A DNA stretch of 64,000 bases, from positions 186,001 through 250,000 of the forward strand of contig NZ_FXTY01000006.1 in NCBI RefSeq assembly GCF_900182745.1, in the 5' to 3' direction. Below, piece by piece: positions 2,651 to 24,160 of this stretch. Under the pieces are notes generated by a model. It had not been told where the DNA came from. It did no database searches and was given only the letters and a program-made list of their open reading frames with translations. Source of the stretch: Shimia sagamensis. Its GTDB lineage: Bacteria > Pseudomonadota > Alphaproteobacteria > Rhodobacterales > Rhodobacteraceae. Every line of letters begins with the position of its first letter. Position 1 is the stretch's first letter. A program made the translations under genes and the position numbers.

Positions 2651-3430
2651 TTAAACGTGACGCTCGATCAACATCTTCTTGATCTCGCCAATCGCCTTTG
2701 CCGGGTTCAATCCCTTTGGACAAGTTTTGGCACAGTTCATGATTGTGTGGCAGCGGTACAGCTTGAACGAATCTTCCAGCTCGTCCAGACGCTCACCAGT
2801 CGCCTCATCACGGCTGTCGATGATCCAGCGATAGGCATGCAATAGCGCTGCAGGGCCGAGGTATTTGTCGCCATTCCACCAGTAGCTTGGGCAAGATGTG
2901 GAGCAGGACGCACACATCACACACTCATACAGACCATCAAGCTTCTTGCGGTCTTCAATCGACTGGCGCCACTCTTTGGCCGGACGGTTGGTCTTGGTTT
3001 CCAGCCACGGCATAATCGACGCGTGCTGCGCGTAGAAATGCGTCAGGTCCGGGATCAGGTCTTTCACCACTGACATATGCGGCAGCGGGTAGATCTTCAC
3101 ATCACCTTTGACCTCATCGAGACCATAGATACAGGCAAGCGTGTTGATCCCATCTACGTTCATCGCGCAGGAGCCACAGATGCCTTCGCGGCAAGAACGG
3201 CGAAAGGTCAGCGTTGGATCAATCTCGTTTTTGATCTTGATCAGCGCATCCAGGATCATCGGACCACATTTGTCCATATCGAGGAAATATGTGTCAATCT
3301 GCGGGTTTTTACCGTCGTCCGGGTTCCAGCGGTAAATCTGAAACTTGCGCACGTTGGTCGCACCTTCTGGCTTGGGCCAGGTCTTGCCGGTCACAATCCG
3401 ACTGTTCTTGGGGAGGGCAAATTCGACCAT
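2651..3430 (-). CDS. sdhB: Succinate dehydrogenase iron-sulfur subunit
   Basis: The 259-residue iron-sulfur subunit of complex II, passing electrons from the FAD of SdhA to ubiquinone at the inner membrane. All cluster ligands are present: [2Fe-2S] Cys80, 85, 88 and 100 ([10 protein letters not shown]); [4Fe-4S] Cys170, 173, 176 and 237; [3Fe-4S] Cys180, 227 and 233 ([17 protein letters not shown] and [11 protein letters not shown]). Length and motif spacing are normal. It is the last gene of the operon, about 50 bases after the sulfotransferase-like gene rather than directly after sdhA. A terminator follows. Confidence 0.98.
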
Positions 3431-4347: not shown

Positions 4348-4902
4348 TTACCGGCAATAGCGGCTCCCACCATGCATGACGCCCGCACTCTTGGGACATC
4401 CGGTTGCGAGATCGATCTGCTTTTGTGCCTGATACTGAGGATCAGCAAGTTTGTTGCAAGTCATCTTATACTTGATGCCACGCCCAATGGAGGCACCGCC
4501 AACACCAGCGCCCATCAACAGCCAGAACTCAGATGCGGTCCCGTACGAGGCAATTGTTGCGGCCGTGACAAGGGTCCCCACAATCAAATGCGCGTTGCCT
4601 TTGCGATGGCATTGCGCCACCAGCTCTTTGCTCGCCACATTTGTCGCAGATAGCGCAGCACTGAACTGCACGTCGTAGGTGTCGTTCAAACAGTCGTTGA
4701 TTTTCTGGACACCGACTTCCGTCCCGCCAGTGGCGACCAAAACCGTCGGAACCTTCTTGTTCACCGCAACAAGATAACTGCCTGGCGCGTGGGTTCTGGA
4801 CATGCAGGATTGCACCTGTTCAACAACAACCGAGGTCTCAGCCGAAACCTGCGTCGCCAAACCGGCAACAACCATACAAAATCCAAAACCCAACGGTTTC
4901 AT
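4348..4902 (-). CDS. Secreted or membrane hypothetical protein coupled to sdhA
   Basis: A 184-residue protein with a signal peptide (about 1-21, ending in VSA) and one glycine-rich hydrophobic stretch (about 105-140, including FWLLMGAGVGGASIG) that could cross the membrane or form a glycine-zipper helix. Six cysteines lie outside the signal peptide. I recognise no family. Its ATG overlaps the sdhA stop as TGATG (one base shared), so it is probably translated by coupling to SdhA. An assembly or envelope role is a guess from position only. Confidence 0.7.
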   Translation of the reverse strand: MKPLGFGFCMVVAGLATQVSAETSVVVEQVQSCMSRTHAPGSYLVAVNKKVPTVLVATGGTEVGVQKINDCLNDTYDVQFSAALSATNVASKELVAQCHRKGNAHLIVGTLVTAATIASYGTASEFWLLMGAGVGGASIGRGIKYKMTCNKLADPQYQAQKQIDLATGCPKSAGVMHGGSRYCR

Positions 4903-6710
4903 CAGAACGTCCGTGCCTTCGGTGCGATCTTCTTCAGGCTGATACCGCCTTCATCTTCTGTGGTCAGAGGATCTTTGATCACAGGACGATAGGTCAGGTC
5001 CACCTTGTTGCCATCTACACGGCTCACAGTGTGCACACGCCAGTTTTTGTCGTCCCGGTCCGAGTAGTCCTCATGTGCGTGCGCACCACGGCTTTCTTTA
5101 CGGGCTTCCGCGCCGTGGATTGTCGCCAACGCGTTTGGCATCAGGTTGGTCAGTTCCAGCGTTTCCATCAGATCGCTGTTCCATACGAGAGATGTGTCCG
5201 TCACGTGCAGATCATCGATCTTCGCCGCGATGTCAGTCATCTTCTCAACGCCTTCTTTCAGCGTCTTGTCGGTCCGGAACACAGCTGCATCCGCCTGCAT
5301 GGTGCGCTGCATTTCCAGACGCAGTTCCGCTGTTGGCGCGCCACCTTTGGCGTTGCGTACATTGTCAAAACGATCAAACGCGGCGTCAACCGACGCCTGG
5401 TTCAGAACTGGATTTGACGCGTCCGCATCTACAACCTTGCCGGCGCGAATAGCCGACGCGCGGCCAAACACCACAAGGTCGATCAGCGAGTTGGAGCCAA
5501 GACGGTTCGCGCCATGTACAGAGGCACAGCCCGCTTCACCCACAGCCATCAGACCCGGCACAACAGCGGTTGGATCTTCGGCAGATGGGTTCAAAACTTC
5601 CCCCCAATAGTTGGTTGGAATACCACCCATGTTGTAGTGAACTGTTGGCAGAACCGGGATCGGCTCTTTGTTCACATCCACACCCGCAAAAATTTTCGCA
5701 GATTCAGAGATCCCTGGCAGACGCTCCGCCAACGCTTCGGCCGGCAAGTGGTTGAGGTTCAAATGGATATGATCACCGTTCTCCCCCACACCGCGCCCTT
5801 CACGGATCTCCATTGTCATGGAGCGGGACACGTAATCCCGAGGTGCGAGGTCTTTATACTGAGGCGCATAGCGCTCCATAAAGCGTTCGCCTTCGGAGTT
5901 GGTCAGATAGCCACCCTCGCCACGCGCACCCTCGGTGATCAGACAGCCAGAACCGTAGATACCCGTGGGGTGGAACTGCACAAATTCCATATCTTGCATT
6001 GGCAGACCCGCACGGGCCACCATACCACCGCCATCACCGGTACAGGTGTGCGCAGAGGTTGCAGAGAAATAGGCGCGGCCATAGCCACCGGTCGCCAGCA
6101 CAACCATCTTCGCGTTGAAGACATGCATGGTGCCATCATCCAGCTTCCAACAGACCACACCCTGACACTGACCGTCCTCAGACATAATCAGATCAAGCGC
6201 GAAATACTCGATGTAGAATTCGGCGTTGTTCTTGACCGACTGGCCATAGAGCGTGTGCAGGATCGCATGACCGGTCCGGTCCGCTGCCGCACAGGTGCGC
6301 TGCACAGCAGGGCCTTCGCCAAACTCAGTGGTGTGGCCACCAAACGGACGCTGGTAAATCTTGCCTTCTTCGGTCCGGGAGAATGGCACACCGTAGTGCT
6401 CCAGCTCGTACACCGCTTTGGGCGCTTCACGGGCGAGGTATTCCATCGCATCCGTATCGCCCAGCCAGTCAGAGCCTTTCACAGTGTCATACATATGCCA
6501 CTGCCAGTTGTCCGGGCCCATGTTGGACAGGGACGCCGCGATACCGCCCTGCGCCGCAACGGTGTGCGAGCGGGTAGGGAAAACTTTGGTCACACAGGCA
6601 GTGCGCAGGCCTTGTTCAGCCATGCCCAGCGTCGCGCGCAGACCAGCGCCGCCGGCGCCAATAACCACGACATCATATTCGTGGGTTTCATATTCATATG
6701 CTGCAGTCAT
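4902..6710 (-). CDS. sdhA: Succinate dehydrogenase flavoprotein subunit
   Basis: The 602-residue catalytic subunit of complex II, oxidising succinate to fumarate. The FAD-binding motif [15 protein letters not shown] lies at 14-28. [10 protein letters not shown] contains His49, the expected site of covalent FAD attachment. HPTGIYG and [11 protein letters not shown] carry the substrate-side and catalytic arginine motifs, and [11 protein letters not shown] is the second FAD segment. Length is normal for the family. It follows sdhD after 24 bases and is fused by stop/start overlap to the secreted orphan downstream. Confidence 0.98.
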
Positions 6711-6734: not shown

Positions 6735-7106
6735 TCACAGGGCAAGCTTAACAAGCGCAAATAGGCTTGCCGCGATCAGTGCAAAGCAAAACGCTTTGTT
6801 TGCCACCAGCAGCAGTTTGCCAGCCGTGCCATGCACGTAGTCTTCGATGGCTTCCTGCGCTTCGTTCATCAGGTGGATCAGCCCCACAACCAGGCCAAGA
6901 CCGGTCACGATTGCTGGGAAGGGACGGCTGAAGTAGGAAATCACCTCTTCATAAGAACCACCAAGGCCACACCCTATGGTGAAAATGAAAAGCGGTGCCA
7001 AAACACCCATGATCACCGAGCGCACCATCATCTGCCAATGGGCTGCTGTGCCGTTGCGGCCGGAGCCAAGGCCCACTGCGCGTTTGCGGTCAGTCAGATA
7101 TCGCAT
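6735..7106 (-). CDS. sdhD: Succinate dehydrogenase membrane anchor subunit D
   Basis: A 123-residue hydrophobic anchor of complex II with three predicted membrane helices (about 30-47, 63-82 and 98-122). It contributes to the quinone and haem b site; GLIHLMNEAQEAIEDYVHG includes the histidines usual for this subunit. The start at MRYLTDRKRAVGLGSG fits family N termini (the KRAxGLGSA/G motif); a longer frame from 7259 would overlap sdhC. It starts 11 bases after the sdhC stop. Confidence 0.95.
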   Translation of the reverse strand: MRYLTDRKRAVGLGSGRNGTAAHWQMMVRSVIMGVLAPLFIFTIGCGLGGSYEEVISYFSRPFPAIVTGLGLVVGLIHLMNEAQEAIEDYVHGTAGKLLLVANKAFCFALIAASLFALVKLAL

Positions 7107-7117
7107 CGTGTTTCTCC

Positions 7118-7501
7118 TTATACCGCAATCACAGTGATGATGGTCAGCACAGTTGCGCCGACAAACATGCCTAGCCCCATACGCTCGGACGTTTTTACAT
7201 CCATGCAATAGCCCAGGTCCCAGATCACGTGTCGCAGACGGCCAAGTGTGTGATACCACAGGCCCCAGGTCGCAGCAGTGAGCAGAAGTCCACCAAACCA
7301 GCTGCGCATAAAGCCATCAATGCCAGCGAAAGCACTCTCAGAGGTTGCTGCGGCCACAAGCCACCACACAACAAAGAGGGCCACACCCAGCAAGCCGATG
7401 CCACTGATGCGAACCATGATAGACGACGCTGAGGTCATCTGCGGACGGTAAATACTCAAATGAGGCGAAAGCGGGCGGTTGCCCCGATTGACATCGGCCA
7501 T
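7118..7501 (-). CDS. sdhC: Succinate dehydrogenase cytochrome b556 subunit
   Basis: A 127-residue membrane anchor, first gene of the sdh operon. It has the family opening NRPLSPHLSIYRPQ (residues 8-21), three membrane segments, and LRHVIWDLG with His91, the probable haem b ligand, plus His84. The start at MADVNRGNRP is chosen because GGAG lies 5-8 bases upstream; the frame extends 16 codons further without a good ribosome site. Transcription should start in the region carrying the paired TGTGATCACA sites. Confidence 0.96.
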   Translation of the reverse strand: MADVNRGNRPLSPHLSIYRPQMTSASSIMVRISGIGLLGVALFVVWWLVAAATSESAFAGIDGFMRSWFGGLLLTAATWGLWYHTLGRLRHVIWDLGYCMDVKTSERMGLGMFVGATVLTIITVIAV

Positions 7502-7615
7502 ATTGGCTCCTTTCAGGTTAGCTGAAATCGTTTTACCGCTTTTTTGCACCTTGTCACGGTTTCAATACCCTAAATGTCATGGTTTTTTCGTGCAATGCCA
7601 CGGATTTTTCACTTT

Positions 7616-7645
7616 TGTGATCACACTTTTTTATATGTGATCACA
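7616..7645 (-). promoter_or_regulatory. Tandem TGTGATCACA operator-like palindromes upstream of sdhC
   Basis: Two exact copies of the 10-base palindrome TGTGATCACA lie at 7616-7625 and 7636-7645, centre spacing 20 bp (about two helical turns), 115-144 bases upstream of the sdhC start. The first sits in TTTTGTGATCACACTTTTT, a 19-base block repeated exactly upstream of sucC. This arrangement suggests a dimeric regulator bound on one face of the DNA. The regulator is not identified. The core lacks the 6-base spacer of a CRP or FNR-type half-site pair. Confidence 0.7.
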
Positions 7646-7757: not shown

Positions 7758-8423
7758 TTACCGCAGCTCCGAGAGTTGCTGAGACACCTCACGCATCAGT
7801 TTTTGTCGAATCCTTTTGGGGTATTCTTCAAAACCATTTGCGGTCACGACAAACGCACCCGGCCCTGTGATCACATTTTCCCAATAGTAGCCCGTGAGAT
7901 CATTTTCTTCAGTTTCGATGACCAGCCCATTCACCGTCACGCCCATCCACTCAAGACGCTTTCTTCCTATTTCCGGCAGCACGCCTTCATTTGAGGGCCC
8001 ATCGCCTGATACATCCAAAACCATCCGGCGACAGCCTGGCCCTGCCGCCAGTTCCACTGCCGCCCGTGACAATGCATCTCCTATCGCTGTCGAATACCTA
8101 CGCCAGCCGCGCGGCGCGACGTCTACCGCAACGGCCAAAGCCTCTGCTTCCACTCCGTTGCGCACCCGCATCCACGGCACCGACATCACCTGCCGATCCG
8201 CGCCGGTCCACTGCATCACAGCCACCGCAGCCTCAGCCTTGATCAACGCCTCAACAACAACGCCATCCCGCAATCCCGCCGCAAGCCCCCTCATTTGAAT
8301 GTCGTATTCGGTGGCATCCACACTGCCGGACACATCAACCGCCAACAAAAGCGCAAGATCACAGGCACAGGCCATAGGTGCCTGACCACAAAGAAAAAGT
8401 AAGAGAGAAAGACGCAGGATCAT
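7758..8423 (-). CDS. DUF1194 family von Willebrand factor A protein
   Basis: A 221-residue exported protein with a VWA fold. The signal peptide covers about 1-20 (ends MACA). The metal-ion-dependent adhesion site is visible as DVSGS at 30-34, with a later Thr/Asp pair in LDVSGDGPSNEG. The family is common in Rhodobacterales and Rhizobiales; its ligand is not known. It lies upstream of sdhC on the same strand, ending about 110 bases before the operator pair, and itself contains a fifth exact TGTGATCACA. Confidence 0.85.
   Translation of the reverse strand: MILRLSLLLFLCGQAPMACACDLALLLAVDVSGSVDATEYDIQMRGLAAGLRDGVVVEALIKAEAAVAVMQWTGADRQVMSVPWMRVRNGVEAEALAVAVDVAPRGWRRYSTAIGDALSRAAVELAAGPGCRRMVLDVSGDGPSNEGVLPEIGRKRLEWMGVTVNGLVIETEENDLTGYYWENVITGPGAFVVTANGFEEYPKRIRQKLMREVSQQLSELR
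7866..7875. promoter_or_regulatory. Fifth TGTGATCACA palindrome, inside the DUF1194 gene
   Basis: An exact copy of the 10-base palindrome found upstream of sdhC and sucC. Its centre is 230 bp from the nearer sdhC site, close to 22 helical turns. It encodes part of NVITGP, so codon choice alone could explain it. It could be a remote auxiliary site for looping. Confidence 0.3.
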
Positions 8424-16377: not shown

Positions 16378-16807
16378 CCGTCCAACTGCGCAGTTGGGAA
16401 CCGCACCACACCTGACGCGGCCCGCTCGGACCGCATACCGGCAGAAGTCTCTGCAATAGGTCAGCGGGTCGCCAGTTTGCAGTGCTGCCACACCATCGTT
16501 CCTCCCCAAGGTTCGGCTCAAATTCCGGACAAAGCCTCCAAGACAAGGCTGGCGCAACTCGGTTTATCTGCGTCGAACCGTTTGCGGTAACGCTGCAATG
16601 CAATCCGACTCGGACACGCATCCCCTTATTTCATAGACATTTTGTTAACCCTGTGCGGTTTTTCGCCGAACTGACCCATTTTGTGATCACACTTTTTCTG
16701 ACTGTGATCACAAATAAGAAAAAATCCACCATTCCTGTCGAATTTGCTTATCGGTTCGACAGGACTGTGCCAGAACTGCGCCAATCGTAGCAAGATGGGA
16801 CAGTTCC
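16378..16807. other. Intergenic region upstream of sucC
   Basis: A 430-base gap. It opens with a perfect 16-base palindrome, CCAACTGCGCAGTTGG (16382-16397), directly after the lipoprotein stop. The middle part shows nothing I can call as a gene. The last 180 bases are AT-rich and hold the paired TGTGATCACA sites and presumably the suc promoter. Confidence 0.6.
16682..16712 (+). promoter_or_regulatory. Tandem TGTGATCACA operator-like palindromes upstream of sucC
   Basis: Exact palindromes at 16682-16691 and 16703-16712, centre spacing 21 bp, about 95-126 bases upstream of the sucC ATG. The first lies in TTTTGTGATCACACTTTTT, identical over 19 bases to the block upstream of sdhC. This is consistent with joint control of complex II and the suc operon by one dimeric regulator. 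Confidence 0.7.
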
Positions 16808-18004
16808 ATGAACATCCACGAATATCAGGCGAAAGCCCTGCTTCGCTCCTACGGCGCCCCGGTGTCCGAAGGCCGCGTCGTTCTGAAAGCAGAAGACGCC
16901 AAATCCGCCGCTGGTGAACTGGACGGCCCACTTTGGGTTGTGAAAGCACAAATCCACGCTGGTGGCCGCGGCAAAGGCTCCTTCAAAGAAGCTGACGCAG
17001 GCGAAAAGGGCGGTGTCCGTCTTGCCTTCTCAGTTGAAGAAGCCGCTGAAGAAGCCAAAAAGATGCTGGGCCGCACCCTTGTGACCCACCAGACCGGCCC
17101 AGCGGGCAAACAGGTCAACCGCATCTACATCGAAGATGGCTCTGACATTGAAAACGAACTCTACCTGGCTCTGCTGGTAGATCGCGCCACCTCGCGCGTG
17201 TCGTTTGTCTGTTCCACCGAAGGCGGCATGGACATCGAAGAAGTGGCCGAAGCCACCCCTGAGAAAATCCTGTCCTTCTCTGTCGATCCGGCCACTGGCT
17301 ACCAAGCCTACCACGGCCGCCGCATTGCCTTCTCCCTCGGCCTCAAAGGCGCGCAGGTAAAGCAGTGTGTGAAACTGATGGGTCAGCTCTACCAAGCCTT
17401 CATGGAAAAAGACATGGAGATGCTGGAGATCAACCCGCTGATCGTTCTGGAAGGTTCCGGCGATCTGAAAGTGCTCGACGCCAAAGTCGCGTTTGACGGC
17501 AATGCCATGTACCGCCAGCCTGCGGTTGCGGAGCTGCGTGACGAAACCGAAGAAGACTCCAAAGAGCTTGAGGCGTCCAAGTATGACCTCAACTACATCG
17601 CTCTGGACGGTGAAATCGGCTGCATGGTGAACGGTGCCGGCCTGGCGATGGCCACCATGGACATCATCAAACTCTACGGTGCTGAGCCTGCGAACTTCCT
17701 CGATGTTGGCGGCGGCGCCACCAAAGAGAAAGTGACCGAAGCCTTCAAAATCATCACGTCCGACCCACAGGTCAAAGGCATCCTTGTGAACATCTTCGGC
17801 GGCATCATGCGCTGTGATGTAATCGCAGAGGGCGTTGTGGCCGCGGTGAAAGAAGTTGGCCTGCAGGTGCCACTGGTTGTGCGCCTTGAGGGCACCAACG
17901 TGGAAGCCGGCAAAGAGATCATCAACACCTCCGGTCTTGATGTGATCGCAGCCGACAACCTGTCCGACGGCGCTGAAAAAATCGTGAAAGCGGTTAAGGG
18001 CTAA
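16808..18004 (+). CDS. sucC: Succinyl-CoA synthetase beta subunit
   Basis: The 398-residue ADP-forming beta subunit, coupling succinyl-CoA cleavage to nucleotide triphosphate synthesis. The N-terminal ATP-grasp domain starts [19 protein letters not shown] and carries [11 protein letters not shown]. The C-terminal ligase domain has the [13 protein letters not shown] and [15 protein letters not shown] motifs. Length is normal. It is the first suc gene after the operator pair. An orphan secreted-protein gene begins 3 bases after its stop and separates it from sucD. Confidence 0.98.
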
Positions 18005-18007
18005 GCG

Positions 18008-18490
18008 ATGAAGGTTTTCCTTGTCAGTTCGTTGTTAGCGTTTTCCCTTCCTCAGGCGGCGGTGGCTTCAAGTTCACTGCCAAAAGAGGTCGCTAACCGT
18101 GTCACCCAAGGCAGCGATGCTTGCGCGGCCTTCATGGCTTCGGGAACCAGCACAAAGACTCTCAAGAGCTTGGGCTTCAAGGGGTTTATGGGGAACATGC
18201 GGTTCGCTGTTAAAAGGTCCAATGCCCTTGCCCGAACTGAAATAGTCGTTGGAACCCAAAGCAAGAGAAAATGCTTCGTGTCAGTTAATATTTGGACACG
18301 TTCTGACTACAAGGAAGCCTTTGCAATTGCTGGAAAGTCTCTAATTGACAAAGGGTACACTCGGAAAACCCGGAAAATAAGCAGCAATGTTTCGGAGCAA
18401 TTCTTTCAACTAGGCACCCAAAAGGTGAATTTGCGTTTCGCATCGAGCGGATACGGATCGAGCCAGGTCACTTTCGAAAGACAAAGATAG
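18008..18490 (+). CDS. Secreted hypothetical protein between sucC and sucD
   Basis: A 160-residue exported protein; the signal peptide is about 1-21 (ends AVA). The mature part is basic (pI clearly high: many Lys/Arg, ending FERQR) with two cysteines (SDACAAF and RKCFV). No domain is recognised. Base composition and codon use are visibly more AT-rich than sucC and sucD (for example AATATTTGG, ATAGTCGTT runs), which hints at later insertion. It starts 3 bases after the sucC stop and ends 82 bases before sucD, so it must be on the suc transcript. Confidence 0.7.
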   Translation: MKVFLVSSLLAFSLPQAAVASSSLPKEVANRVTQGSDACAAFMASGTSTKTLKSLGFKGFMGNMRFAVKRSNALARTEIVVGTQSKRKCFVSVNIWTRSDYKEAFAIAGKSLIDKGYTRKTRKISSNVSEQFFQLGTQKVNLRFASSGYGSSQVTFERQR

Positions 18491-18572: not shown

Positions 18573-19454
18573 ATGGCTATCCTCGTAGACGAAAACACCA
18601 AGGTTATCTGTCAGGGCTTCACCGGCTCTCAGGGCACCTTCCACTCTGAACAAGCCATCGCTTATGGCACCAAAATGGTCGGCGGCGTAACGCCAGGCAA
18701 AGGTGGCATGGACCACCTCGGCCTGCCGGTCTTCAACTCCGTGCACGAAGCCAAGGCAACCACCGAAGCCAACGCCTCTGTGATCTATGTTCCTCCGCCC
18801 TTCGCAGCGGACTCGATCCTCGAAGCGATCGACGCTGAGATGGAACTGATCATCTGCATCACCGAAGGCATTCCTGTGCTGGACATGATGAAGGTTGAGC
18901 GCGCGCTGCAAGGCTCCGCGTCCCGCCTGATCGGCCCAAACTGCCCCGGCGTGATCACACCTGACGCCTGCAAAATCGGCATCATGCCAGGCCACATCCA
19001 CAAGCGTGGCTCCGTGGGTGTTGTGTCCCGCTCCGGTACACTGACGTATGAAGCCGTGAAGCAAACTGCTGACATCGGTCTGGGCCAATCCACAGCTGTG
19101 GGCATCGGCGGCGACCCGATCAAAGGCACCGAGCACATCGACATCCTCGACATGTTCCTGTCTGACGATGAGACCCAGTCGATCATCATGATTGGTGAAA
19201 TTGGCGGTTCAGCAGAAGAAGAAGCTGCTGAGTTCCTGGCTAACGAGCGCAAGAAAGGCCGTTGGAAACCAACTGCTGGCTTTATCGCTGGTCGCACGGC
19301 CCCTCCCGGCCGCCGCATGGGCCACGCTGGCGCAATCGTTGCCGGTGGCAAAGGTGGTGCAGACGACAAAATCGCCGCGATGAAAGAAGCTGGCATTGTT
19401 GTTGCTGACAGCCCAGCCGGTCTCGGCGAAGCTGTGCTCAAAGCGATCGGCTAA
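18573..19454 (+). CDS. sucD: Succinyl-CoA synthetase alpha subunit
   Basis: The 293-residue alpha subunit. The CoA-binding Rossmann motif [14 protein letters not shown] is near the N terminus (about 15-28), [10 protein letters not shown] is the family signature, and MGHAGAI holds His251, the phosphohistidine of the catalytic cycle. Length is normal. AAGGAG lies upstream of the ATG. A structured 64-base element begins 28 bases after its stop. Confidence 0.98.
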
Positions 19455-19705: not shown

Positions 19706-22666
19706 ATGACCGAACAGTCGCCAAACGACATCTTCCACGCCTCCTCCTTTATGCAGGGGCACAATGCGGAATACCTCGAACAGATGTATGCCCGCTACGC
19801 CGCCGACCCCGCTGCGGTTGACGAAGTCTGGCAGGAGTTTTTCCGCCAGCTTGGTGATGCAGAACTGGACGTCAAGGCAGAGGCCGCAGGCCCGTCATGG
19901 GCACGTAATGACTGGCCGCCACAGCCAAACGACGACCTAACCTCTTCCCTGACCGGCGAATGGCCGGAACAGGTTGAAGCCAAGGCCGCTGGCAAAAAGA
20001 TCAAAGAGAAAGCCGCCGCATCCGGCGTTGAGGTCTCTGACGAAGCGATCAAACGTGCGGTGCTGGACAGCATTCGCGCCCTGATGATCATCCGCGCCTA
20101 CCGAATTCGCGGCCACCTGATTGCCGACATCGACCCGCTGGGCATGCGCGATAACACTCCACATCCAGAGCTTGATCCAAAATCCTACGGCTTCTCCGAC
20201 GCCGACATGGATCGCCCGATCTTCATCGACAAAGTGCTCGGCTTGGACATCGCCACGATGCGCCAGATCATGGACATCGTGAAGCGCACTTACTGTGGTA
20301 CATTTGCGCTGCAATACATGCACATCTCCAACCCAGAAGAAGCGAGCTGGCTCAAAGAGCGCATCGAAGGGTACGACAAAGAGATCACCTTCACCCGTGA
20401 GGGCCGCAAAGCCATCCTGAACAAGCTGGTTGAGGCCGAAGGTTTCGAGAAGTTCCTGCATGTGAAATACATGGGCACCAAGCGCTTTGGTCTGGACGGC
20501 GGCGAAAGCCTGATCCCTGCCATGGAGCAGGTGATCAAACGCGGTGGCAGCCTGGGTGTCGAAGAGATTGTCATCGGTATGCCCCACCGTGGCCGCCTGT
20601 CGGTGCTGGCCAATGTGATGGCCAAGCCCTACCGCGCGATCTTCAACGAATTCCAGGGCGGCAGCTTTAAGCCAGAAGATGTCGACGGCTCCGGTGACGT
20701 GAAATACCATCTCGGCGCCTCTTCCGACCGTGAGTTTAACGGCAACACTGTCCACCTCAGCCTGACCGCCAACCCCTCCCACCTTGAGGCGGTGAACCCG
20801 GTTGTGCTGGGCAAAGTTCGCGCCAAACAAGATCAACGCAACGACGATGCCCGCACCTCTGTAATGCCGATCCTGTTGCACGGCGACGCGGCTTTTGCGG
20901 GCCAAGGTGTTGTGGCGGAGTGCTTTGCCCTGTCTGGCCTAAAGGGCCACAAAACCGGCGGCACCATGCATATCGTGGTGAACAACCAGATCGGTTTCAC
21001 CACCGCGCCGCATTTCTCCCGCTCCTCCCCATACCCAACGGACAACGCACTGGTTGTGGAAGCACCAATCTTCCACGTGAACGGCGACGATCCCGAAGCA
21101 GTTGTGCACGCGGCCAAAGTTGCCACCGAGTTCCGACAGAAATTTGGCAAAGACGTCGTCCTCGACATCTTCTGCTACCGTCGCTTTGGGCACAACGAGG
21201 GCGACGAGCCCATGTTCACCAACCCGATGATGTACAAGCGCATCAAGAAGCACAAAACCACATTGACGCTGTATACCGAACGTCTGGTGAAAGACGGCCT
21301 CATTCCAGAGGGTGAGATCGAGGACATGAAAGCCTCTTTCCAAGCCCATCTGAACGAAGAGTTCGAAGTGGGCAAAGACTTCAAACCCAACAAAGCTGAC
21401 TGGCTTGATGGACGCTGGTCGCACTTGGACAAACGCGGCGAAGACTATGAACGCGGCCAAACCTCGATCAAGCCGGAAACCTTGGCAGAAATCGGCAACG
21501 CCCTAGCGTCCGTGCCCGAAGGCTTCCCGCTGCACAAAACCGTGGGCCGTCTGCTGGACACCCGTGGCAAGATGTTCTCTTCCGGCAAAGGTTTTGACTG
21601 GGCCACCGCCGAAGCCATGGCCTTTGGCTCACTGATGACCGAAGGCTACCCCGTGCGCCTATCCGGTCAGGATGCCACCCGCGGCACGTTCTCGCAGCGC
21701 CACTCCGGCATCATCAACCAGGACACGGAAGAGCGCTACTACCCGCTCAACAACATCCGCGCCGGTCAGAGCCAATACGAAGTCATCGACTCTGCGTTGT
21801 CTGAATACGCGGTGCTTGGCTTTGAATATGGCTTCTCGTTGGCAGAACCAAATGCGCTGACCCTTTGGGAGGCCCAGTTTGGCGATTTTGCCAACGGTGC
21901 GCAGATCATGTTTGACCAGTTCATCAGCTCAGGCGAAAGCAAATGGCTGCGCATGTCCGGTCTGACCGTTCTGTTGCCACATGGCTTTGAAGGCCAAGGC
22001 CCGGAGCACTCCTCCGCACGTCTTGAGCGTTTCTTGCAGATGTGTGGTGGCGATAACTGGATTGTGGCCAACTGCACCACGCCGGCCAACTACTTCCACA
22101 TCCTGCGCCGTCAGCTGCACCGCACCTTCCGCAAGCCGCTGATCCTGATGACACCCAAATCCCTGCTGCGCCACAAACTGGCGACATCTGAAGCGGAGGA
22201 TTTTGTCGACGGGTCTTCCTTCCACCGCGTGCTGTGGGATGACGCCCAGAAAGGCCAGTCCGACACCGAGTTGAAGAAAGACAAAGACGTCAAACGTGTC
22301 GTCATGTGTTCCGGCAAAGTCTACTACGACCTGCTCGAAGAGCGCGACGCCCGTGGCATCGACGATGTCTACCTGATGCGGATTGAGCAATATTATCCGT
22401 TCCCAGCCCACTCGCTGATCAAGGAGCTTGAGCGCTTCAAAGATGCAGAAATGGTCTGGTGTCAGGAAGAACCCAAGAACCAAGGTGCCTGGTCCTTCAT
22501 CGAACCCAACATTGAATGGGCGCTCACACGCATCAAAGCCAAACACTCCCGTCCGGTATACGCAGGCCGCCCGGCCTCCGCCTCGCCTGCCACCGGACTG
22601 GCAAGCCAACACAAAGCCCAACAAGCAGCGCTGGTGGATGCCGCGCTCTCCATGGAAGGAAATTGA
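19706..22666 (+). CDS. sucA: 2-oxoglutarate dehydrogenase E1 component
   Basis: The 986-residue thiamine-diphosphate-dependent E1 of the 2-oxoglutarate dehydrogenase complex. The N-terminal E1 motif (HASSFMQGHNAEYLEQMYARY) is present. The TPP core includes GMPHRGRLSVLANV, HGDAAFAGQGVVAE and NNQIGFTTAP, and the transketolase-like pyrimidine domain has QDATRGTFSQRHS. Length is normal. It is followed by sucB after 3 bases (TGATCC, then ATG), so the two are coupled. A 251-base leader with the structured repeat separates it from sucD. Confidence 0.98.
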   Translation: MTEQSPNDIFHASSFMQGHNAEYLEQMYARYAADPAAVDEVWQEFFRQLGDAELDVKAEAAGPSWARNDWPPQPNDDLTSSLTGEWPEQVEAKAAGKKIKEKAAASGVEVSDEAIKRAVLDSIRALMIIRAYRIRGHLIADIDPLGMRDNTPHPELDPKSYGFSDADMDRPIFIDKVLGLDIATMRQIMDIVKRTYCGTFALQYMHISNPEEASWLKERIEGYDKEITFTREGRKAILNKLVEAEGFEKFLHVKYMGTKRFGLDGGESLIPAMEQVIKRGGSLGVEEIVIGMPHRGRLSVLANVMAKPYRAIFNEFQGGSFKPEDVDGSGDVKYHLGASSDREFNGNTVHLSLTANPSHLEAVNPVVLGKVRAKQDQRNDDARTSVMPILLHGDAAFAGQGVVAECFALSGLKGHKTGGTMHIVVNNQIGFTTAPHFSRSSPYPTDNALVVEAPIFHVNGDDPEAVVHAAKVATEFRQKFGKDVVLDIFCYRRFGHNEGDEPMFTNPMMYKRIKKHKTTLTLYTERLVKDGLIPEGEIEDMKASFQAHLNEEFEVGKDFKPNKADWLDGRWSHLDKRGEDYERGQTSIKPETLAEIGNALASVPEGFPLHKTVGRLLDTRGKMFSSGKGFDWATAEAMAFGSLMTEGYPVRLSGQDATRGTFSQRHSGIINQDTEERYYPLNNIRAGQSQYEVIDSALSEYAVLGFEYGFSLAEPNALTLWEAQFGDFANGAQIMFDQFISSGESKWLRMSGLTVLLPHGFEGQGPEHSSARLERFLQMCGGDNWIVANCTTPANYFHILRRQLHRTFRKPLILMTPKSLLRHKLATSEAEDFVDGSSFHRVLWDDAQKGQSDTELKKDKDVKRVVMCSGKVYYDLLEERDARGIDDVYLMRIEQYYPFPAHSLIKELERFKDAEMVWCQEEPKNQGAWSFIEPNIEWALTRIKAKHSRPVYAGRPASASPATGLASQHKAQQAALVDAALSMEGN

Positions 22667-22669
22667 TCC

Positions 22670-24160
22670 ATGACCGAAGTTCGAGTCCCTACCCTTGGCG
22701 AATCCGTCACCGAAGCCACCGTTGCCACCTGGTTCAAGAAACCGGGTGATGCGGTTGCTGTCGACGAAATGCTCTGCGAGCTGGAAACCGACAAAGTGAC
22801 CGTCGAAGTCCCGGCCCCAGCCGCCGGTGTTCTGGGAGAGATTGTCGCTGCCGAAGGCGACACCGTGGGTGTTGATGCTCTGCTGGCCAACATCACCGCG
22901 GGCGAAGGTGCCGCACCTGCGCCAGCCGCTACCGCAGCACCCGCCGCCGCAGCCCCTGCATCCGGTGGTGGTGATGCGGTTGACGTGATGGTCCCAACTC
23001 TGGGTGAATCCGTAACCGAGGCCACCGTCTCCACATGGTTCAAAGCTGTGGGTGACACCGTTGCGCAAGACGAGATGCTCTGTGAGCTGGAAACCGACAA
23101 GGTTTCCGTCGAAGTGCCTGCGCCTGCCGCTGGTGTGTTGACTGAGATCGTCGCAGCTGAAGGTGCCACTGTGGACGCCTCCGCAAAACTGGCCGTAATT
23201 GGTGGCGCGTCTGCCTCCGCACCAACAGCGCCTGCCGCAGCCCCAGCTGCCGCACCTGCTGGTTCCGCTGATGTCGAAAACGCCCCATCTGCCAACAAAC
23301 TGATGGCGGAAAAAGGCATTGCTGCATCTGCTGTCACCGGCACAGGCCGCGATGGTCGCATCATGAAAGAAGACGTGATGAAAGCCGCCTTGGCCCCAGC
23401 ACCTGCCGCTGCCCCAGCCCCGGCTGCAGCCCCACGTGCACCGGTATCCGCTGACGACGCCTCCCGCGAAGAGCGCGTGAAAATGACCCGTCTGCGTCAG
23501 ACCATCGCCAAGCGTCTGAAAGAAAGCCAGAACACCGCCGCCATGCTCACGACCTACAACGAGGTCGACATGGGCGAGGTCATGGCACTGCGCAGCCAAT
23601 ACAAAGACCAGTTCGAGAAAAAGCACGGCGTGCGTTTGGGCTTCATGTCTTTCTTCACCAAAGCTTGTGTGCACGCGCTGAAAGAAGTGCCAGAGGTGAA
23701 CGCAGAGATCGACGGCACCGACATCGTGTACAAGAACTTCGTACACATGGGTGTGGCCGCTGGCACGCCAACCGGTCTGGTTGTGCCTGTGATCCGCGAT
23801 GCCGACAGCATGTCTTTTGCGGAGATCGAAAAAGCCATCTCTGAAAAAGGCAAACGTGCCCGTGACGGCAAACTGTCCATGGCGGAAATGCAGAGCGGCA
23901 CCTTCACGCTGTCCAACGGCGGTGTCTACGGCTCTCTGATGTCCTCGCCAATCCTGAACCCACCGCAGTCCGGTATCCTCGGTATGCACAAAATTCAGGA
24001 CCGTCCAATGGCAATCAACGGTCAGGTTGTGATCCGTCCGATGATGTATCTGGCCCTGTCCTACGATCACCGCATCGTGGACGGCAAAGGCGCCGTGACC
24101 TTCCTCGTGCGCGTGAAAGAAGCGCTGGAAGACCCACGCCGCCTGCTGATGGATCTCTGA
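22670..24160 (+). CDS. sucB: Dihydrolipoyllysine succinyltransferase E2 with two lipoyl domains
   Basis: The 496-residue E2 core of the 2-oxoglutarate dehydrogenase complex. Two lipoyl domains stand in tandem: residues 1-78 with Lys42 and about 103-180 with Lys144, both in ELETDKV(T/S)VEVPAPA. An Ala/Pro linker, the subunit-binding domain (about 206-240), a second linker and the catalytic domain (from about 265) follow. The active-site [11 protein letters not shown] has His467. Most E2o proteins have one lipoyl domain, which explains the extra ~90 residues; I recall longer SucB proteins in other Rhodobacterales. Confidence 0.97.

Follow-up and report, generated by a model that had tools for sequence, protein, structure and literature searches.

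A window of 64 kb of Shimia sagamensis DNA (64,000 nucleotides, the whole stretch that was analysed) carries two pairs of the perfect ten-base palindrome TGTGATCACA before two operons of the tricarboxylic acid (TCA) cycle, one pair upstream of sdhC, the first gene of the sdh operon, and the other upstream of sucC, the gene of the beta subunit of succinyl-CoA synthetase. We found that the regulator of both pairs is very probably AkgR, a GntR-family protein described in Rhodobacter sphaeroides, and most likely, with a probability that we put at about 0.93, each pair works as an operator for two AkgR dimers that activate sdhCDAB and sucCD-sucAB jointly, with a single site at akgR limiting the synthesis of the regulator. 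One AkgR dimer would sit on each palindrome, and the two dimers of a pair, two helical turns apart, would face the same side of the DNA at about 100-140 bp from the start codons, on the upstream side of the promoters. So placed, they would activate both operons together, that is, three consecutive steps of the cycle, from 2-oxoglutarate through succinyl-CoA and succinate to fumarate, and the lone palindrome by the akgR start codon would restrain AkgR's own production. An earlier note on this DNA had ascribed the two pairs to one unknown regulator; the question of which regulator is now answered, since motif, targets and an orthologue of 78-80% identity all match the AkgR of R. sphaeroides, which links the locus to a described TCA-cycle activator.

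Paired palindromes before sdhC and sucC

The decamer TGTGATCACA matches the window exactly at 7616-7625 and 7636-7645, before the minus-strand gene sdhC, and at 16682-16691 and 16703-16712, before the plus-strand gene sucC, in keeping with the earlier note, with centre-to-centre spacings of 20 bp at sdhC and 21 bp at sucC. Counted from the sdhC ATG at 7501, the promoter-proximal AkgR-type palindrome (7616-7625), whose register is kept in relatives, is centred 119.5 bp upstream and the distal one (7636-7645) 139.5 bp upstream; counted from the sucC ATG at 16808, the distal palindrome (16682-16691) is centred at 121.5 bp and the proximal one (16703-16712), which has an outer AAA flank, at 100.5 bp. 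Five exact decamers were seen in the 64 kb against 0.07 expected, a number that none of 100 shuffles reached; the fifth, absent from the earlier note, lies at 7866-7875 within a DUF1194 coding sequence (7758-8423, minus strand) and is probably incidental. The whole genome of 4.50 Mb holds 11 exact decamers, four of them forming the two pairs, one standing 8 bp upstream of the ATG that opens a gntR gene discussed below, and six lying in gene-like open reading frames (ORFs), these being judged by eye except for the copy at 7866, assigned by a family scan. The lone core octamer GTGATCAC, with at least 196 copies in the genome, is uninformative, and therefore pairs and decamers were used. Pairs of GTGATCAC occur in the genome only before sdhC and sucC, with either 9-16 (N9-16) or 2-32 (N2-32) intervening bases allowed, and a backward control pattern gave no pairs in the genome in either search. 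The paired palindromes are confirmed as real and far beyond chance.

The pairs are conserved in most of the family. Among 60 genomes, the window's own included, searched for GTGATCAC pairs at 17-24 bp spacing (N9-16), all 25 members of the genus have them, two pairs each, as do nine of 11 other family members (seven with two pairs, two with one) and two of 24 genomes from other families. In a family sample of 394 genomes, about one per genus, with 2-32 bases allowed between the palindromes (10-40 bp spacing), the pair was present in 361 and the backward control in two; in a class sample limited to 20-21 bp spacing, two pairs were found in five of five family members and one pair in two of 380 others. 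Among the 75 pairs listed in the 394-genome search, which come from 36 genomes, 69 are spaced 20-21 bp. Detailed reading of 37 genomes showed a spacing of 20 or 21 bp in every one of the 33 sdhC and 35 sucC pairs, these pairs having mostly been fetched with the 17-24 bp pattern and their positions read in 35 genomes, at sdhC and/or sucC; the remaining two pairs of that set, at 22 and 18 bp, belong to other families and stand away from sdhC and sucC. The distances to the start codon are similarly kept within the genus, with sdhC pairs centred about 120-124 and 140-144 bp upstream in 22 of 25 genomes (about 131 and 152 bp in the other three) and sucC pairs at 100-103 and 121-124 bp in 23 of 25 (112.5 and 133.5 bp in two). 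The pairs therefore passed the test that the earlier note had set against itself, random scattering or loss in relatives, and its suggestion that one dimeric regulator acts jointly on sdh and suc through sites two turns apart appears well founded in view of this conservation.

Other parts of that note fared less well. It had given weight to a 19-base block shared by both promoters, and the 19-mer TTTTGTGATCACACTTTTT does occur twice in the window, at 7613 and 16679; the identity is found in this genome alone among 33 compared, the longest block common to both promoters of one genome being 9-15 bases in the 32 others and 9-13 bases in 28 of the 33, with 15 as the next longest after 19, and a functional 19-base block was discarded as a candidate. 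By coordinate, the block does enclose the first member of each pair. Since sdhC is on the minus strand, however, that first member is proximal at sdhC and distal at sucC, and the block is inverted relative to transcription because in each of the two promoters it takes in the outer edge. The note had also named gltA, acnA, icd and fumC as genes where further pairs would support its reading, and the genome has pairs at sdh and suc only, single or degenerate sites at those genes having lain outside the search. The idea that paired sites at gltA, icd or acnA extend the regulon to more of the TCA cycle was likewise set aside, given just two pairs per genome in the 25 genomes of the genus (N9-16).

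Some genomes depart from this pattern. At least six have 4-11 pairs, the extra ones mostly at other spacings; in one family genome, G312, two of eleven GTGATCAC pairs are at 21 bp and the rest at 16-39 bp, several sharing contigs, possibly through another use of the motif. At G183:C8:374318-374367, three palindromes follow one another in 21 bp steps, as in a triple operator.

The flanks of the palindromes were analysed in 60 of the 69 pairs listed at 20-21 bp, these 60 coming from 31 genera and being taken regardless of their position relative to sdh or suc. The outer edge of a palindrome reads TTT, with 0.78, 0.70 and 1.55 bits at -3, -2 and -1, and the inner edge does not (0.04, 0.33 and 0.95 bits), with G or C at -2 in 95 of 120 inner edges; TT stands at both outer edges in 30 of the 60 pairs and at both inner edges in none. 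This asymmetry is also clear in the sucC set; among the sdhC pairs, the outer edge is strong at the proximal site and weaker at the distal one. Since the distal sdhC site of the window itself is without the outer TTT, the flank rule is statistical. Given that the core is itself palindromic, only the flanks distinguish inside from outside, and they make the pair two-fold symmetric, which suggests a composite operator for two dimers that would cooperate. We go one step further in proposing that the pair is a single two-fold-symmetric operator, TTTGTGATCAC-N12/13-GTGATCACAAA with an AT-rich middle, for a dimer of dimers. Its outer arms would keep the TTT/AAA contacts and its inner arms would have lost them as the neighbouring dimer replaces them; pairs would activate the distant operons and the lone start-codon site would silence akgR, with a geometry that varies by no more than 1 bp in most of the family, and with operators and regulator mostly absent together. 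For this fuller picture we judge the chances evenly balanced. If the composite operator is real, it would offer a simple case of a GntR/FCD protein that activates at paired sites and represses at a single one.

AkgR and the site at its own gene

The gntR gene of the S. sagamensis genome lies at G000:C3:105652-106302 (plus strand), on another contig than sdh and suc, and its product of 217 aa (P0001) has a GntR domain (PF00392, 2.3e-14) and an FCD domain (PF07729, 3.9e-18), each exceeding the gathering score; among solved structures, McbR (4p9f, 8.4e-22) matches it best. For comparison, we treat genome G099 as R. sphaeroides because its cytochrome c2 is identical to PDB 1cxa, which we take to come from that species. 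The best match to P0001 in G099 has 78-80% identity and the next best 33%, and the gene order there, sucA-sucD-sucC, then sdhC-sdhD-sdhA, then gntR, agrees with the RSP numbers, AkgR being presumably RSP_0981. By identity and by the map position that the RSP numbers imply, the S. sagamensis genome has the RSP_0981 orthologue. AkgR reportedly activates TCA genes directly (the work of Imam in mBio, 2015, is said to have established this). Further, an alignment of 115 orthologue rows (P0001 and 114 fetched, some genomes being represented twice) shows no variation at Asn138, His142, His185 and Asp207, and these positions presumably correspond to the metal- or ligand-binding residues of FCD domains, for which reason an organic-acid effector, for example an acid of the 2-oxoglutarate-to-fumarate steps, is plausible.

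In the published accounts, RSP_0981 is a GntR regulator predicted to control sucCD, sdh and the alpha-ketoglutarate dehydrogenase genes (akgDH) in R. sphaeroides (PMC4344238), GTGATCAC is reported among the AkgR binding sites of that species, and AkgR is termed the "transcriptional activator AkgR" (PMC6365646). The regulator, the motif and the targets are therefore already in print and are not new. In the literature surveyed (titles and openings of abstracts, a survey that did not cover the primary AkgR study), we found no description of the paired spacing, the composite operator or the akgR start-codon site; the constant two-turn pairing, kept across much of the family, is the less familiar element.

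The palindrome also marks the gene of the regulator. Of 30 loci, 29 have the octamer GTGATCAC where gntR begins, the S. sagamensis one included, the 30 being the fetched subset of 34 strong orthologues, and it stands upstream of akgR in 80 of 80 named records, which are the best 80 of 229, have 79-98% identity and overlap the 30-locus set; in 31 of the 80 its centre falls 12.5 or 13.5 bp ahead of the match start. At this position a bound protein should block expression, and therefore the site suggests that AkgR may repress its own gene. A flank of TT on both sides of these single sites was tried as a rule and mostly fails, with both sides in 15 of the 80, the upstream side in 54 and the downstream side in 25. 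In G235 (C1:3357949-3357969), two palindromes 13 bp apart stand 37 bp 5' of the AkgR match and form a more closely spaced double site in the autoregulatory place. Two records, JAFKDC010000035.1 (L263, titled Enemella evansiae) and JAHEGF010000227.1 (L219, titled Phyllobacteriaceae), encode AkgR of 80-81% identity under labels that look wrong.

Regulator and pairs occur together. The best E-values for P0001, read by eye from the tables, form two groups, and the gap between 2e-59 and 5e-76 was taken as the border of strong orthologues. By this border, 351 of the 394 genomes have both a strong orthologue and the pair, five the orthologue without an exact pair, ten the pair without a strong orthologue and 28 neither, an agreement in 379 genomes (Fisher p 1.7e-29, only indicative, as the genomes are related); if the count is limited to the 347 genomes with completeness of 90% or more and contamination of 5% or less, the same classes number 319, 3, 3 and 22. 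The gene sucC was sought in 12 chosen genomes and recovered in 11, G203 being the one without it. In all seven chosen for lacking both pair and strong orthologue, no degenerate pair was found upstream of sucC (best 8-10 mismatches of 20). Among the five with the orthologue and no exact pair, the sucC upstream was read in G088 and G338, which have a degenerate pair there with 2-3 mismatches of 20 at 21 bp; G203 is a third of the five, and G195 and G391 were outside the 12. We regard the sites as established, together with their geometry, their conservation, the orthologue and its co-occurrence with them, and these findings suggest that much of the family controls complex II and succinyl-CoA synthetase jointly and, to judge from gene order, 2-oxoglutarate dehydrogenase with them.

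Points against and other explanations

Several observations weigh against AkgR acting through these pairs as proposed. A sigma-70 consensus scan found no promoter at either the sdh or the suc operon, and therefore the position of the sites relative to the promoter is a reading of conserved bases; by eye, a weak minus-strand candidate at sdhC (TTGCAC, 17 bp, TAGGGT) would place the proximal site near -61. R. sphaeroides and G035 have no exact copy of the site at the gntR start codon, and therefore autoregulation does not extend to every member. Possibly the genomes without gene and pair all belong to one clade, in which case the Fisher p overstates their independence, and two of them, G328 and G385, have a moderately similar GntR protein (E about 1e-59). 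Of the ten genomes with the pair and no strong orthologue, three (G067, G162 and G303) reach a completeness of at least 90%, with assemblies of 210-320 contigs each, and in G303 and G162, which were chosen for this combination, the pair sits before sucC; these two count against a strict coupling of gene and operator unless their fragmented assemblies miss akgR. Finally, AkgR binding, cooperativity, activation and autorepression in S. sagamensis are what we infer, activation from the literature and from the position of the sites, which fits because the presumed promoters lie downstream of them.

The pairs might instead be bound by another regulator, as yet without a name, with AkgR merely sharing its targets or its motif. 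The ten genomes just mentioned would agree with this, and other GntR proteins do use the same core, such as a Pseudomonas regulator 32% identical to AkgR (PMC6365646). In G049, of another alphaproteobacterial family, a 22 bp GTGATCAC pair (L088:8809-8838) stands 84 bp 5' of an ORF that by eye resembles a TonB-dependent receptor; a GntR gene some 2.5 kb from the pair, with 31% identity to AkgR, is probably a paralogue with the same core. Against an unnamed regulator, strong AkgR orthologues and pairs agree in nearly all genomes of the family sample, the same palindrome marks akgR itself, and the published target list and motif coincide with ours; we consider this explanation very improbable.

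Sites of the CRP or FNR type are less likely still, to the point of being hardly credible. The half-sites TGTGA and TCACA do resemble those of CRP, whose consensus is TGTGA-N6-TCACA, yet in TGTGATCACA they abut with no 6-bp spacer, and a CRP site was rejected on this test, in agreement with the earlier note, which had ruled out both proteins. We hold equally little of a protein-free repeat or structural element, be it a hairpin RNA, a mobile repeat or a methylation site, for which the self-complementary sequence containing GATC might speak. A perfect 10-bp palindrome leaves no loop, the spacers are nearly all distinct (32 among 33 sdhC pairs and 34 among 35 sucC pairs) at a spacing that stays 20-21 bp, and the absence of pairs follows the absence of the GntR gene. 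No Rfam match reached the gathering score in window positions 1-26000, and an RNA element was dropped on this ground and for want of a loop.

The two operons and comparison with known systems

The sdh operon runs on the minus strand, with sdhC, the cytochrome b556 subunit (7118-7501; TIGR02970, 2.7e-31, and PF01127), followed by sdhD, the membrane anchor (6735-7106; TIGR02968, 5.9e-11, obtained on 6735-7259, the ATG at 7106 having been chosen by reading), sdhA, the flavoprotein subunit (4902-6710; TIGR01816, 1.8e-279), and a probable sdhB (2651-3430), assigned without a family scan from 85% identity to the protein encoded after sdhA in R. sphaeroides. On the plus strand stand sucC (16808-18004; NF001913, 4.4e-175), sucD, the alpha subunit of succinyl-CoA synthetase (18573-19454; NF004230, 1e-136), sucA, the 2-oxoglutarate dehydrogenase E1 (19706-22666; PF16870, PF00676 and PF02779), and a sucB-type E2 acyltransferase (22670-24160; PF00198, 5.3e-84); sucA, being co-directional with sucC-sucD, is probably on one transcript with them. 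Between sucC and sucD, a 160-aa ORF (18008-18490, plus strand) has no NCBIfam match and, by eye, a start like a signal peptide.

The closest known system is the AkgR (RSP_0981) regulon of R. sphaeroides, with which S. sagamensis shares the GntR/FCD regulator (78-80% identity), the GTGATCAC operator and the sites before the sdh and sucCD/akgDH operons. R. sphaeroides itself has the same two pairs, both at 21 bp, whereas the sdhC pairs are at 20 bp in 22 of the 25 genomes of the window's genus; akgR lies about 2 kb past sdhA in R. sphaeroides and on another contig than sdh and suc in S. sagamensis, and the exact start-codon site is present only in the latter of the two. Two further regulators are comparable in part. 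The PS417_07240-type regulator of a deoxyribonate cluster in Pseudomonas is likewise of the GntR family with the core GTGATCAC (PMC6365646), but it differs in its low identity to AkgR (32%), in the place of its conserved palindrome, -47 to -40 relative to its start, and in its catabolic target. CceR (RSP_1663) of R. sphaeroides is likewise a predicted regulator of sdh and of further genes of central carbon metabolism, but it belongs to the LacI family and its motif is GTT-N6-8-AAC (PMC4344238).
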